A program made the translations under genes and the position numbers. The notes under the pieces were generated by a model, which was not told the DNA's origin, did no database searches, and saw only the letters and a list, made by a program, of their open reading frames with translations. Below, in pieces: positions 5,307-10,052 of a stretch of 20,811 nt of DNA. Origin of the DNA: a virus; the IMG/VR virus record IMGVR_UViG_3300025151_000379, positions 1 to 20,811 of that record; one strand, 5' to 3'. Each line of letters begins with the position of its first letter. Position 1 is the first letter of the stretch.

Positions 5307-7166
5307 ATGGTATTAAACAAAGATATATTTTTAGGAGCAGGAACTACATTAGCATTTATTCCCGAATGCGATTTGTATTTAGGTGTTGGGCGACAAAGCG
5401 ATGATTCGGCATTTCCCACAAATGGTTCATTAACAACGGGTGAAGTTAAAGCATCTGCTGGATTTTTAGCAAATTTTTCTTTGGTTGAAAATTTGTATAT
5501 TGGTTGTTTAGTAGAAAGATATTCAGGAGCAGACGATACTTTGATTTCTACTCATAGAATCAAATCAAATACTTCTACTACCATTACTACTACCCATTCC
5601 TTTAAGCCGCATCAGGATGATTACTTTGTTATTAAAGCATATGGCGCACCAACACCTGCTACGACCTCAACCGCCAAAAGACTTCTTTCTGACCAATGGT
5701 TAGGTATTCTCGAAAGTGCTACTTTCCCAACTGTTGAACCTGACTTTAAACAACTTAACTTAAGTCTTGGTGGTTCAAGAAACTTTACTTATCAGTATAA
5801 AGGAATTACAAACTTTGGAACTGCTGATTTAGGATTGGTCGCTAATCACGGTGCTTGGTTGTATTATTTCTTAGGAAGATGCACTAACATTAATTGTTCT
5901 ACTGCTGAATTAGCCGCATCAGATAATTCACCAGATGATAGATTTACAGCAGATTCAAACGATGCAAATGCTATTATGATTGAAGGATTAGATTCAGCAG
6001 GTGCTAATGTTCCTGTTGGAGCAGGTAAAGATATTGGTGGATTTGCTGATACTGGGCCATTCTTTTATAGAACGATAGGTCAAGACATTTGCCCACCTTT
6101 AGCAGATAACGCAATTGCTGTTATTTCTAATATGGATGCTTTAACAAGACCAACAATTGATACAAGTGGACAAATAACAAACGCAATCACTTATACATTT
6201 GAAGAATCTAATACAGATACATTGCCTTCATTTGCTATTGAAAGAAGTGATAGTAAATTAGCGGCTACTACTCCGTTTAGAACAGATACAACTTCTATTT
6301 CAATTACAGGTGGCTCTACTACTGTTAATAGCACTACAATTACATTTACTGATAACGCTAATTCTGCTTTAATGCAAGTCGGTATGTTAATTAGTGGAAC
6401 TGGTATTCCTGCACATACTCGTATTGCACAGATTGTTAGTGGTGTAAAAGCAGAATTAACCAATGCTGCATCTGCGACAGGTTCTTCTCTTACCTTTACT
6501 TTAACAGAAGATGAGGATAATTCCTTTGTTCAAATTGCAAGAGGTTGTAGAGTCAATACTTTAACAATGACAGCAAATGAAAATGAAGAAGTCAAGATGA
6601 CTCTTAGCCTAAATACTCGAAATGTTCACCTTCCAAGTGAAACAGAACAATATGATGCAAGAAGGGCAGTAAGCGAGGAAAGAAGTTTCTTTAATTTTGA
6701 AGCCTCTACTACTGGTGCTAATTCGGCTCAAGAGTTTAGAGAACCATTTTTCTTTTCAGATGGAACTTTTAAGGTATTAGGTCAAGAGTTTTTGAAAATC
6801 AATACTTTAACATTGACTATGAACAATAATCTACAAGACCGAAGATTCTTAGGTGTTGGCAGTAAGGAAGTTCAAGAAGCAATTCCTGCTCAAAGAAATT
6901 ATGAAATTCAATTTACTGGACACGTTACAGATAATGCTTTATACAAAGCACTTAGAGATGATTCTGAAAATATTACTCAAACGATTGAATTGGTGTTTAA
7001 TAAGCCAAATGGAGAGGCAATTACTTTAAACTTTACTGATTATTTCGTTAGTGCAAATAATTTCCCGATTGTTGATGATAACTCACCTCTTGCAGTTGAA
7101 GCAACAGTTATGCCAAGAAATCTAAGTCTTTGCACAGTAAAGACTCATTGGGTTTTGCAGGGGTGA
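5307..7166 (+). CDS. Major tail (tube) protein, very large, with inserted beta module
   Basis: The product has 619 residues, against about 150-300 for usual tube proteins. The last 120 residues carry the pattern I associate with tail tube proteins: NTLTLTMNNNLQDRRFLGVG, then a charged stretch (EIQFTGHVTDNALYKALRDD), then a beta strand ending in LNFTDYFVSANNFPIV. Residues about 145-195 (LNLSLGGSRNFTYQYKGITN, GLVANHGAWLYYFLG) look like the other half of a tube fold. Between them, residues 331-398 form the beta module also found in the adaptor and the hub, and further Thr/Ser-rich sequence may decorate the outside of the tube. It lies between the probable terminator and the chaperone pair, as expected. 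No separate sheath or second tube gene is present, which points to a non-contractile tail. A sheath-like function cannot be fully excluded. Confidence 0.65.
   Translation: MVLNKDIFLGAGTTLAFIPECDLYLGVGRQSDDSAFPTNGSLTTGEVKASAGFLANFSLVENLYIGCLVERYSGADDTLISTHRIKSNTSTTITTTHSFKPHQDDYFVIKAYGAPTPATTSTAKRLLSDQWLGILESATFPTVEPDFKQLNLSLGGSRNFTYQYKGITNFGTADLGLVANHGAWLYYFLGRCTNINCSTAELAASDNSPDDRFTADSNDANAIMIEGLDSAGANVPVGAGKDIGGFADTGPFFYRTIGQDICPPLADNAIAVISNMDALTRPTIDTSGQITNAITYTFEESNTDTLPSFAIERSDSKLAATTPFRTDTTSISITGGSTTVNSTTITFTDNANSALMQVGMLISGTGIPAHTRIAQIVSGVKAELTNAASATGSSLTFTLTEDEDNSFVQIARGCRVNTLTMTANENEEVKMTLSLNTRNVHLPSETEQYDARRAVSEERSFFNFEASTTGANSAQEFREPFFFSDGTFKVLGQEFLKINTLTLTMNNNLQDRRFLGVGSKEVQEAIPAQRNYEIQFTGHVTDNALYKALRDDSENITQTIELVFNKPNGEAITLNFTDYFVSANNFPIVDDNSPLAVEATVMPRNLSLCTVKTHWVLQG
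6297..6500 (+). repeat. Beta module copy 2 (inside the tail tube protein)
   Basis: This encodes 68 residues with the pattern STTITFTDNANSALMQVGM, ISGTGIPAHT and SSLTFT. It is more diverged than copies 1 and 4 but has the same order of elements. Confidence 0.65.
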
Positions 7167-7284: not shown

Positions 7285-7288
7285 TATT

Positions 7289-7328
7289 CCACCAACACCG
7301 TTTGTTTGTTTGTTGGTATAGAAGGTGG
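7289..7328 (+). promoter_or_regulatory. Possible two-state RNA hairpin before the chaperone gene
   Basis: ACCAACA at 7291-7297 is a perfect complement of TGTTGGT at 7311-7317, with a 13-base loop containing TTTG repeats. CCACC at 7289-7293 is also a perfect complement of GGTGG at 7324-7328, which is the ribosome binding site of the gene at 7334. The two pairings share three bases (ACC), so they compete, and one of them would hide the site. This is read by eye, with no folding energy computed. Confidence 0.4.
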
Positions 7329-7333
7329 ATAAA

Positions 7334-7702
7334 ATGTTAAATAAGAAAATTATAACAGATAAGAGTGTGCTTTTTGCACTAAGCGAGCCTACGCTACATT
7401 ATATTAAAGTAGCACCCGAAAGCGATGAATACTTCAAGGTGTGGGTTAAAGAACCCACATGGCTTGAAGTAGATAAAGCCATTAATAGCGTTATGAATAT
7501 TAACACAAGAACGCAACAAATGGACTTAGACTTGAATGCTATGTTTAAATACATGGTTGAAAATTTCATTACAAAGACCGAACCAAGTCTTTCGGCAATT
7601 GATATTCTCAGGTTAAATACTTACGTTGGAAATCAACTCAAAGATATTTTACCAAACCCATTTGAATCTTTATCAGGAGATGAAGAAAAAAACGAAGATT
7701 GA
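7334..7702 (+). CDS. Tail assembly chaperone, gpG-like (0-frame product)
   Basis: The product has 122 residues. I choose ATG 7334 because AAGGTGG at 7322-7328 precedes it; GTG 7325 lies within that site. It is alpha-helical after a short beta start, with motifs such as EPTWLEVDKAIN and an acidic end (SGDEEKNED). Family knowledge: in lambda and many other siphoviruses, two overlapping genes between tube and tape measure make a short chaperone (gpG) and, by -1 frameshift, a longer one (gpGT) that coats the tape measure during assembly. Size, position and the downstream partner fit. A canonical slippery heptamer lies at 7687-7693, just before the stop. Sequence similarity to a known family is not something I can confirm by eye. 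Confidence 0.6.
   Translation: MLNKKIITDKSVLFALSEPTLHYIKVAPESDEYFKVWVKEPTWLEVDKAINSVMNINTRTQQMDLDLNAMFKYMVENFITKTEPSLSAIDILRLNTYVGNQLKDILPNPFESLSGDEEKNED
7440..7459 (+). other. Perfect 8-bp inverted repeat inside the chaperone gene
   Basis: TGTGGGTT, then AAAG, then AACCCACA forms an eight-base-pair stem with a four-base loop, about 228 bases before the slippery site. Whether it folds in the mRNA is not known. Confidence 0.45.
7675..7693 (+). promoter_or_regulatory. Predicted -1 ribosomal frameshift site (A AAA AAC with upstream AGGAG)
   Basis: The heptamer A AAA AAC at 7687-7693 is in the right phase: the gene reads GAA AAA AAC GAA GAT TGA, so both decoding codons can re-pair one base back. 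AGGAG at 7675-7679 stands seven bases upstream, similar to the Shine-Dalgarno stimulator of E. coli dnaX. After the slip the frame reads CGA AGA TTG AGA GGA GCG ATG and continues to the stop at 7900-7902. The fused product would have about 189 residues. No downstream pseudoknot was identified by eye. Confidence 0.6.
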
Positions 7703-7710
7703 GAGGAGCG

Positions 7711-7902
7711 ATGAAAAGTGGTAAAATACAACCACAGGACGTTTCTCTCGTTGTCGTTTATACGATTTCTAAGGCTTTGGCGATTAGCCCCTTAGAAGTA
7801 TATAAAATGCCAAACAGTTTAGTTAATGATTTGTTAATGATGATAAATATACAAAATGAACTTGAAGCCGAAGAGATGGAGAAAGCAAGAAAAGGAAAGT
7901 GA
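7711..7902 (+). CDS. Tail assembly chaperone, T-domain partner (own start, or -1 frameshift fusion)
   Basis: From ATG 7711 the product has 63 residues. The frame is also open upstream to the slippery heptamer at 7687-7693, so it can be made as the C-terminal part of a fusion. The segment ALAISPLEVYKMPNSLVNDL, followed by a helix rich in Glu, resembles the short second domain of tail chaperones, which often has a helix, an SP.EV turn and another helix. GAGAGG at 7701-7706 gives a possible independent start. The gene ends in a four-base overlap with the tape measure GTG start. I infer a role in holding the tape measure protein before tube polymerisation. Which of the two expression routes is used cannot be told from sequence alone. 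Confidence 0.6.
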   Translation: MKSGKIQPQDVSLVVVYTISKALAISPLEVYKMPNSLVNDLLMMINIQNELEAEEMEKARKGK

Positions 7903-10052
7903 TTACTTTGGCTGATGAATCTCTTCGAGGACTTGCCGAACAAGTTCAAAAAATGAATAAACATTTAGAAGAGCAATCTGAAAAATTTGCAACACTTAAT
8001 GCTCATATAGAACAGCAATCTAACAAATTCAGAACACTTAAAAATAGGGTGGCTCTATACAAGACTGAAATTGAAACTTTACATGAAAATTATGACGCTG
8101 CTCAAAATGCAGTATTAAATTTAAATCGAACTAATACTGATTTATTAGTAAGTTTTACAAATAGTGCCGATAAAACGGCAGAAATTTTAGAAAAGATAAA
8201 TGATAGAAGCATTAAAGAAGTGAAGGCAAGAAAAAAATTAGAGAAAAAATTTGCCAAAGAACAAATAGAAATACAACAAAAGTTGCAGGTTTCTATTGAA
8301 GCAGTAACAACTGCTATGCAAAATCAAGCACAGGCCCAAAATCCTCAAGATGCTGAGGAAATGATTAGGAAGGAAAAGGAACGTGTTGAAGCATTTAAAC
8401 AACTTCAAGAAGAATATGGTAAGTTTGTTAAAAAGGAAATTCAAGCAAATGAAAACTTAGATACTCGGAGTAGAATACTTGGAGTTGCAATTGCTAAATA
8501 TAAAAAAGAAACAGGCGACAGAAAGTTGCCTTTCTTTGAAGGAATGTCATTGTATTTAGAAGAAGGCGGGACAAAGGCTGAATATCTCGCTCAGTTTTTA
8601 ACTTCAACAAGAGAAGAATTAAAAGTATTTGGTGTTGAAGTCGCTTCTGTTAGAAAATTCATGTATGGATTTTTACCACCTGGAACTTTTAGATTAGTAA
8701 ATAAATTTGCTTCTACTTTAAATTTCATTGGCGGAACAATGAGGACTCTTAAGGCTGATGCCGAAGGAACGGGTAATATTTTAACTACTACGTTATTTTC
8801 AGGAACAATAGATAAAAAAGGTCTTCGTAGATTATCGGCAAGAAGGGATGAATTAACTGGACAAATAGGGGAAACTAAAACAAAGTTCCAAGAACAGTTG
8901 AATCTTTCTACTGATGCAAGTATAAGTCAATTAGATAGAGATGCCGCAAAGCAGCAAGCAGAATACCTTGAAGGAATACTTAATGAACTTAAAGAAGAAA
9001 AGAAAGGAGTTAAGCAAAAATTAAAAAAGCGAGGTAATATTCTTGCTAAAATATTAGAAAATGGCTTTGGTCTTCAAACATTTAGAAAGTATAGTGAAAA
9101 GGGATTAGAATACAATGAAAGAATAACTCAAGGATATGAAAAATTCATTGAAAAACAAGATGAAATAATAAAAAATGCTAATAATGCATATACAAAGGGA
9201 CAACAATTCCGTGCTAGAATTAAAAAGATTGCAGTTCAAGTAGGTAGATTTTTACTCATGGCTTCAATGTATATATTATTATTCAGTTTCTTATTCATAT
9301 TTATCAAGAAATTTTTCGAAGCCAATTCCGAGAGAATAAAAAAGTTTTATGAAATTGTAAGTGGAATATTTAAATGGTTATTCGGAACAGTTGTTAGTGG
9401 TGTTATAGATACAATAAGTGGAATTAGCAAAGTTATTACAGGCTTACTTGGCGGAAAAGTTGGGAAAGTATTTGAGGGAGTAATAGAAATTGTTTGGGGC
9501 TTACTTCAAGTATTGGGTGGTTTGGCATTAACGGCTCTTGCAGGAGCATTGTCAGTAGTAGGAGCATTAGGTTATTCTCTTCTTATGCAAGGAATCGAAT
9601 GGGGTATAGGTTTCTTTAAGGCAGATGCTTTCCTTAAACGAGTAGGAGATTTAGTTGCATTAGTTTTGGCTGTTAAGGCATTATTATTTATCATCAGTTT
9701 ATTACCAGTTTCATTACCGTTTATTCTTGTAGCAGCATTAGGAGTTGTCATTTTCGCAGCAGTTAGAAAAATAATAAGTGTAATTCCAGGATTTGCAGAA
9801 GGTGGAGTTTCAGCAGGTGGATTAGCAGTTGTTGGAGAAAAAGGTCCAGAATTAGTTAATTTACCAAAGGGTTCAAGAGTCCATTCAAATACTGATAGCA
9901 GAAAAATGACAGGTAGCACAGTAAATAATTTCAATATAACTATCAATGCAAGAGATTCCTCTAAGGCAGAAATGAGAAGAATGGCAGATGAGATTGGAAG
10001 AATGATAAGTTCAAAAATTAATAGAAGCACATCTTCAAGCACATTAAGGTGA
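7899..10052 (+). CDS. Tail tape measure protein
   Basis: The product has 717 residues. The start is GTG 7899, overlapping the previous stop by four bases, or TTG 7908, where the preceding AGTGATTAC resembles the GTGATTAC before ATG 7171. Residues 1-170 are coiled coil rich in Gln, Glu and Lys. Strongly hydrophobic segments lie at about 448-472, 525-564 and 583-626. Residues 632-653 hold FAEGGVSAGG, VGEKGPELV and then PKGSRV, the well-known glycine-rich motif near the end of phage tape measure proteins. The C-terminus is a Ser/Arg-rich tail. The protein sets tail length and, in related phages, assists DNA passage across the cell envelope. At about 0.15 nm per residue the tail would be near 107 nm. 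Its place after the chaperone pair agrees fully. Confidence 0.92.
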   Translation: MITLADESLRGLAEQVQKMNKHLEEQSEKFATLNAHIEQQSNKFRTLKNRVALYKTEIETLHENYDAAQNAVLNLNRTNTDLLVSFTNSADKTAEILEKINDRSIKEVKARKKLEKKFAKEQIEIQQKLQVSIEAVTTAMQNQAQAQNPQDAEEMIRKEKERVEAFKQLQEEYGKFVKKEIQANENLDTRSRILGVAIAKYKKETGDRKLPFFEGMSLYLEEGGTKAEYLAQFLTSTREELKVFGVEVASVRKFMYGFLPPGTFRLVNKFASTLNFIGGTMRTLKADAEGTGNILTTTLFSGTIDKKGLRRLSARRDELTGQIGETKTKFQEQLNLSTDASISQLDRDAAKQQAEYLEGILNELKEEKKGVKQKLKKRGNILAKILENGFGLQTFRKYSEKGLEYNERITQGYEKFIEKQDEIIKNANNAYTKGQQFRARIKKIAVQVGRFLLMASMYILLFSFLFIFIKKFFEANSERIKKFYEIVSGIFKWLFGTVVSGVIDTISGISKVITGLLGGKVGKVFEGVIEIVWGLLQVLGGLALTALAGALSVVGALGYSLLMQGIEWGIGFFKADAFLKRVGDLVALVLAVKALLFIISLLPVSLPFILVAALGVVIFAAVRKIISVIPGFAEGGVSAGGLAVVGEKGPELVNLPKGSRVHSNTDSRKMTGSTVNNFNITINARDSSKAEMRRMADEIGRMISSKINRSTSSSTLR

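Follow-up and report, generated by a model that had tools for sequence, protein, structure and literature searches.

In phage lambda the slip site is G_GGA_AAG. This phage makes its tail chaperone in two lengths, gpG and gpGT, through a -1 slip immediately ahead of the tape measure gene (PMC5009743), and frameshifting of tail-chaperone genes has already been proposed for the archaeal viruses HVTV-1, HCTV-1, -2 and -5, and HSTV-2 (PMC5009743, PMC8211752). For HVTV-1 (gp129/gp130) and HCTV-1 (gp122/gp123), both Druskaviridae, the accounts given in PMC5009743 and PMC8211752 credit the -1 frameshift proposal to Pietila 2013 and Sencilo 2013. Archaeal frameshifting comprises one tested -1 case, that of a Saccharolobus fucosidase, in addition to predictions in a few haloviruses and in chelatase genes (PMC8211752).

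We report a related system in viral DNA of 20,811 nucleotides (IMG/VR record IMGVR_UViG_3300025151_000379, positions 1 to 20,811; the whole stretch is referred to as the window). Judging from the sequence and its homologues, a programmed -1 ribosomal frameshift would yield two tail-assembly chaperones from one start, a reading to which we assign a probability of about 0.95. We class the system as a tail-chaperone frameshift of the G/GT type, the homologue of that proposed for Druskaviridae, and the kind of mechanism is therefore already known, because the proteins are homologous to the HVTV-1 chaperone with its proposed -1 frameshift.

The gene order is tail tube, ORF1/ORF2 and tape measure, where ORF1 and ORF2 overlap (Table 1); the earlier note had placed both frames between tube and tape measure genes, and this is borne out by the Pfam Phage_tube_2 and PHROG matches. 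Mechanically ORF1 opens at GTG 7325; we used ATG 7334 as the start, shortly 5' of which there is an SD sequence, AAGGTGG. The last codons in the ORF1 frame are GAA(7685) AAA(7688) AAC(7691) GAA GAT TGA(7700), so A_AAA_AAC is correctly phased for a -1 slip, and the -1 frame after the heptamer is without a stop until 7900-7902. A fusion protein would hence consist of 120 codons from ATG 7334 to 7693 and 69 codons from 7693 to 7899, i.e. 189 aa. Heptamer, phase and fusion coordinates had all been given correctly in the earlier note.

Table 1. Features of the chaperone locus and its neighbours (positions in the window)
Feature	Position	Strand	Basis or remark
Tail tube protein, upstream	5307..7166	+	Pfam Phage_tube_2, E 5e-12
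ORF1, G-type tail assembly chaperone, 122 aa	7334..7702	+	ATG 7334; PHROG, fold and profile matches
SD-like putative 5' stimulator, cAGGAG	7674..7679	+	Column frequencies, motif spacing and codon choice in 103 representatives
Slippery heptamer A_AAA_AAC, predicted -1 shift site	7687..7693	+	Sequence, phase, conservation
ORF2, T-type extension	7693..7902	+	69 sense codons from CGA 7693, entered via the predicted -1 slip
Putative 3' stimulatory RNA structure, two stems	7700..7750	+	Outer stem 7700-7710/7740-7750; inner hairpin 7718-7722/7731-7735
ATG proposed as separate ORF2 start	7711..7713	+	Not conserved
Tape measure protein, downstream	7899..10052	+	PHROG tape measure, E 3.5e-9

The PHROG matches of ORF1 and ORF2 are weak (E 0.0019 and 0.0063), and all those with an assigned function are tail assembly chaperones. 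The ORF1 profile matches the G part of the HVTV-1 chaperone, gp129, at 22 bits and the ORF2 profile matches the T part at 14 bits; gp129 and gp130 carry the annotation tail assembly chaperone, and the longer of the two is joined from two pieces. The structural model of ORF1 matches the HHTV-2 tail assembly chaperone (Foldseek E 1.8e-6, TM 0.71). It also matches chaperones of Bacillus phages and, less strongly, Mu FS-gp41. Searching the PDB for folds gave no significant match (the HK97 tail chaperone 2ob9 ranked 4, E 2.0), the ORF2 fold search gave nothing at E <= 0.001, and tblastn of ORF1 and the tube protein against INPHARED phages gave nothing; the homology to haloviruses is visible solely via profiles and folds. 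The HCTV-1 proteins had no sequence match to the profiles built here, and lambda gpG showed no sequence relation either. Taken together, PHROG matches, HVTV-1 gp129/gp130 homology and predicted fold support the tail-chaperone identity suggested earlier.

The locus resembles HVTV-1 and HCTV-1 in its position before the tape measure gene, in having an in-phase heptamer (G_GGA_AAG and G_GGA_AAC in those viruses) and in a G-rich SD-like stretch, located 8-10 nt upstream there. The differences are the haloarchaeal hosts and an ORF1 stop that starts 34 nt after the heptamer start, compared to 13 nt in the window. With lambda it shares the two-length tail chaperone, the (here predicted) -1 slip and the tape measure gene next in order, and the lambda-type G_GGA_AAG is present in four of the junctions studied here; unlike in lambda, the heptamer is flanked by an SD-like element and, at sites of the A_AAA_AAN type (A-type), by a 3' stem-loop. 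These features recall Escherichia coli dnaX, where an A_AAA_AAN heptamer likewise has an SD-like sequence 5' and a stem-loop 3', albeit in an unrelated gene, with an SD spacing of 10 nt rather than 7 nt, and outside the archaeal translation that applies here.

The 20.8-kb window stops short of the PolB and capsid genes, and a relative with 87% identical ORF1 (L006) sits in one of ten large related contigs (96.8 kb, G001). Each of these ten large relatives (86-102 kb) has a family B DNA polymerase, divided between two separate open frames in 8 of them, and a protein homologous to the major capsid protein of HVTV-1; 8/10 have a chaperonin. On the basis of the split PolB, the HVTV-1-type capsid protein and the chaperonin we consider these viruses magrovirus-like. 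Searching the large relatives for PCNA gave nothing, and TFB and MCM gave weak matches only. Magroviruses have been linked to Poseidoniales archaea, and a Poseidoniales archaeon as host is taken from that work (PMC10768690). The literature searched (subscription papers were outside the search) yielded no earlier frameshift report for magroviruses, 'magrovirus' and 'frameshift' co-occurring only through a reference title, and what is new here is the comparative evidence for SD-like and stem-loop sequences as putative stimulators in archaeal viruses. Maricaulis was rejected as a host clue: the lone genome-contig match (L118, NZMJ01000011.1) is a 10.5-kb magrovirus-like contig within a MAG labelled Maricaulis sp., a bacterium, and is probably a misbinned viral contig. 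Separately, IMGVR_UViG_3300021958_000021 (184,733 bases) carries two different copies of the chaperone locus 91 kb apart (L077 and L107) and looks like two viral genomes merged into one record.

Relatives were collected from IMG/VR in scans that used ORF1, ORF1 profiles and, as an independent query, ORF2; one genome contig was included. This gave about 280 stretches, many overlapping, with 183 distinct 210-nt junctions, among which those differing at >6 of 61 bases constitute 103 representatives. An in-phase X_XXY_YYZ heptamer in the overlap, with ORF2 in the -1 frame, is present in 179/183 distinct junctions, whereas elsewhere in ORF1 such heptamers occupy 0.8% of codon positions (75/9713). 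Moreover, 103/103 representatives have a slippery heptamer where 29.6 are expected from the encoded amino acids and local codon usage, the observed and expected counts being a measure of strength and not an exact probability, as the sequences share ancestry and the trials are not independent. On both comparisons the heptamer is not a product of chance, and conservation of heptamer and phase among homologues, which the earlier note had put forward as the test, came out in favour of frameshifting. The 179 heptamers are distributed as 97 A_AAA_AAC, 43 G_GGA_AAC, 17 G_GGA_AAA, 8 A_AAA_AAA, 7 G_GGA_AAT, 4 G_GGA_AAG and 3 A_AAA_AAG; that is, the sequence swaps between A_AAA_AAN and G_GGA_AAN (G-type) across relatives and slipperiness is retained. 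Homopolymers are error-prone, and truly fused genes could appear split if the A-run had been misread or misassembled, but many samples, which together provide 179 distinct junctions, show the same frame relation, also at the homopolymer-free G_GGA_AAC sites. No fused ORF1-ORF2 frame was found among the 183 distinct junctions, and near-identical relatives from other samples also have seven As, which excludes such an error and disposes of an earlier caveat; we give this explanation no credence.

The second codon of the heptamer, i.e. the A-site codon, is AAC in 74, AAA in 20, AAG in 5 and AAT in 4 of the 103 representatives. E. coli prefers AAG in the A site, whereas AAC predominates here, partly forced by the -1-frame Arg codon. 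A further observation concerns a -1-frame stop, TGA, located 6 to 4 bases before the heptamer, each base of which is kept in >90% of sites. Since it is preserved just 5' of the heptamer, the -1 frame opens only close to the slip site; its retention may simply be a consequence of conserved Asp-Asp/Glu codons.

Could ORF2 instead be a separate gene with its own start, ATG 7711 or TTG 7699, reached through reinitiation or translational coupling and with the A-run being incidental? ATG 7711 does have GAGGAG close 5', and many relatives have some ATG, GTG or TTG near the N-terminus. However, just 2 nt separate the GGAG from ATG 7711, compared to a peak spacing of 7 nt for GGAGG-led starts in these viruses; ATG 7711 is replaced by TTA in the close relatives L004 and L006; and ahead of the conserved ORF2 core 71/103 relatives have no ATG and 25/103 have none of ATG, GTG and TTG. 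In addition, the -1 frame is conserved as KKR..R from the heptamer onward, ahead of the ORF1 stop; its third codon from the heptamer specifies Arg in 91 of the 100 sites sharing the stop distance, where nine codon types are found. AlphaFold2 models ORF2 as four helices (mean pLDDT 93). With residues numbered from the heptamer, the first helix occupies positions 2-11, and a start at ATG 7711 would delete most of it. A separate start also leaves the heptamer and the SD-like site unexplained, and we regard it as very improbable. The earlier reservation about ATG 7711 can therefore be dropped, and the absence of a conserved independent ORF2 start among the homologues favours frameshifting.

Frameshifting is the reading that accounts for the sequence 5' of the slip site as well. 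In the window, AGGAG (7675-7679) is separated from the heptamer by 7 nt, and in most representatives 7 nt separate the end of the family consensus, (A/G)GG(A/G)GG, from the heptamer, the gap being 10 nt in a few. The codon spanned by this motif encodes Glu or Gly in 98 cases; of these, 87 use GAG or GGG, compared to 18.9 expected from codon use (z 17.5). The amino acid alternates between Glu and Gly while GAG/GGG is kept, which argues for selection on the nucleotides. Sequence and gap thus agree with what the earlier note described as dnaX-like, but the spacing is not of the dnaX type, since bacterial -1 frameshift sites have SD spacings of 9-14 nt (PMC5009743), and the shorter distance counts against the frameshift reading. 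Among GGAGG-led genes of these viruses the spacing to ATG peaks at 7 nt (10/16), and the distance from the SD-like site to the P-site codon is 8 nt, which would become 7 nt after a -1 slip; it is appealing to suppose that this change may explain the fixed SD distance.

Downstream of the heptamer we predict an RNA structure that was overlooked in the earlier note. The spacer between heptamer and stem is 6-7 nt in the window, within the 5-9 nt range of dnaX-like cassettes, and folding of the 72 nt 3' of the heptamer gave an MFE of -21.2 kcal/mol (z -3.0). With synonymous-codon shuffles of ORF2, in which protein and codon use are preserved, the mean z is -3.27 for 70 A-type representatives (91% below -1.64) and -0.21 for a control stretch within the same genes. 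RNAalifold predicted no common structure and no pairs for the 69-sequence A-type alignment, and covariation was therefore counted on the window's own fold using slid and shuffled controls. For these 69 sites, in an ungapped alignment, the outer stem pairs in 75% of cells and the whole structure in 69% of cells vs 41-51% in slid controls; inner-helix pairing, in the register of the window's fold, is only 56%. Cells in which both sides have changed number 154, compared to 62 in shuffles and 34-69 in slid controls. Given these pairing counts, the RNAalifold result indicates that the exact stem register varies. Our data show that the predicted downstream structure is under RNA-level selection at A-type sites. 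The stem is not universal, since a strong fold follows the heptamer at just 35% of G-type sites, and an Rfam search of the window gave no match. As a side observation, G_GGA_AAN viruses (most of L120-L197) often are without the stem that A_AAA_AAN viruses retain, as though stimulation mattered less where the slip site is stronger.

A seven-A run followed by a hairpin could also suggest that RNA polymerase slips on the A-run, producing mRNAs of changed length, and that the ribosome does not shift. Against this, about 40% of the distinct sites (71/179) are G_GGA_AAN, with no long homopolymer and in the same phase, the X_XXY_YYZ phase of the heptamer is invariably the ribosomal one, and an SD-like sequence would have an effect in translation only. 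Such transcriptional slippage is in our view even less probable than a separate ORF2 start; an independent start, transcriptional slippage and sequencing error were each tested and rejected.

Ribosomal frameshifting would operate as follows. From a single start, translation would mostly give a short G-like protein (122 aa) and less often a G-T-like fusion of 189 aa. The SD-like sequence would pair with the elongating ribosome's anti-SD and the stem-loop would resist unwinding at the mRNA entry site, and together the two stimulators would hold the ribosome while tRNA-Lys (AAA) and tRNA-Asn (AAC) occupy A_AAA_AAC. A fraction of ribosomes would then slip to AAA_AAA and continue into ORF2. If lambda is a guide, the G part may serve as a coat for the tape measure protein, and recruitment of tube subunits may fall to the T part. 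We infer the slippage itself, its efficiency and the roles of both proteins. About 180 distinct natural versions of the cassette, from marine archaeal viruses, show what evolution keeps, i.e. the heptamer, the SD-like site at 7 nt and, in one large group, the stem-loop; this comparative evidence suggests that SD/anti-SD contacts matter during archaeal elongation, and it supplies ready reporters.

One magrovirus-like clade (L282-L287) of six contigs from six samples (IMGVR_UViG_3300037991_001356, 3300025168_004245, 3300037847_002819, 3300030118_003002, 3300002483_000024 and 3300030372_001589) departs from this pattern in that the -1 frame meets a stop after KKG and ORF2 is in the -2 frame. All six carry GCAGGAGGATGAAGAAAAAAAGGATGATTAA, and the SD-like site, the A7 run and the stem-loop are all kept, which suggests programmed -2 frameshifting and is likewise new. 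The -1 relatives L093 and L267 group with the clade in the tree; compared to L093 there is one base fewer between heptamer and stem, making the spacer 1 nt shorter. The A7 run would let AAA/AAG re-pair on AAA/AAA at -2, and a -2 slip in L282 would give KKRMIKD where a -1 slip in L093 gives KKRLIKD. Distant members have dS above 1 (near saturation) and dN of about 0.2 or less in ORF2, and the clade's 31 junction bases are unchanged despite these near-saturated synonymous sites. Using a pattern that permits extra bases we found no hidden eighth A; there are exactly seven As in six of six contigs. ORF2 might alternatively begin at the ATG inside GGATGATTAA, but here AGGAGG is 15 nt off, not 7. 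A review of spacer experiments places the optimum for -2 frameshifting at a spacer 1-2 nt shorter than for -1 (PMC7618472). We consider it rather probable, on sequence grounds, that a 1-nt deletion between heptamer and stem turned a -1 site into a programmed -2 frameshift. The clade resembles phage Mu in the -2 frame of ORF2 and in the same tail-gene position, and the ORF1 model has a weak likeness to Mu FS-gp41; the difference is that the site here, with its predicted -2 product, would be derived from a -1 cassette by one-nucleotide deletion. If true, the clade would be a rare natural case in which the size of the frameshift has switched and a matched sister group has kept the -1 slip, and it would let nature test the mRNA-tension model, under which a -2 slip goes with a shorter spacer (PMC7618472).

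Finally, most relatives have a strongly conserved non-coding leader, TTCCACCAACACCGTTTGTTTGTTTGTTGGT...AAGGTGGA, 5' of ORF1 (7288-7329 in the window). It has no Rfam match and is present in a single copy within the window. Its UCCACC can pair with the ORF1 SD, GGUGGA, and the leader may be a cis-regulatory hairpin.
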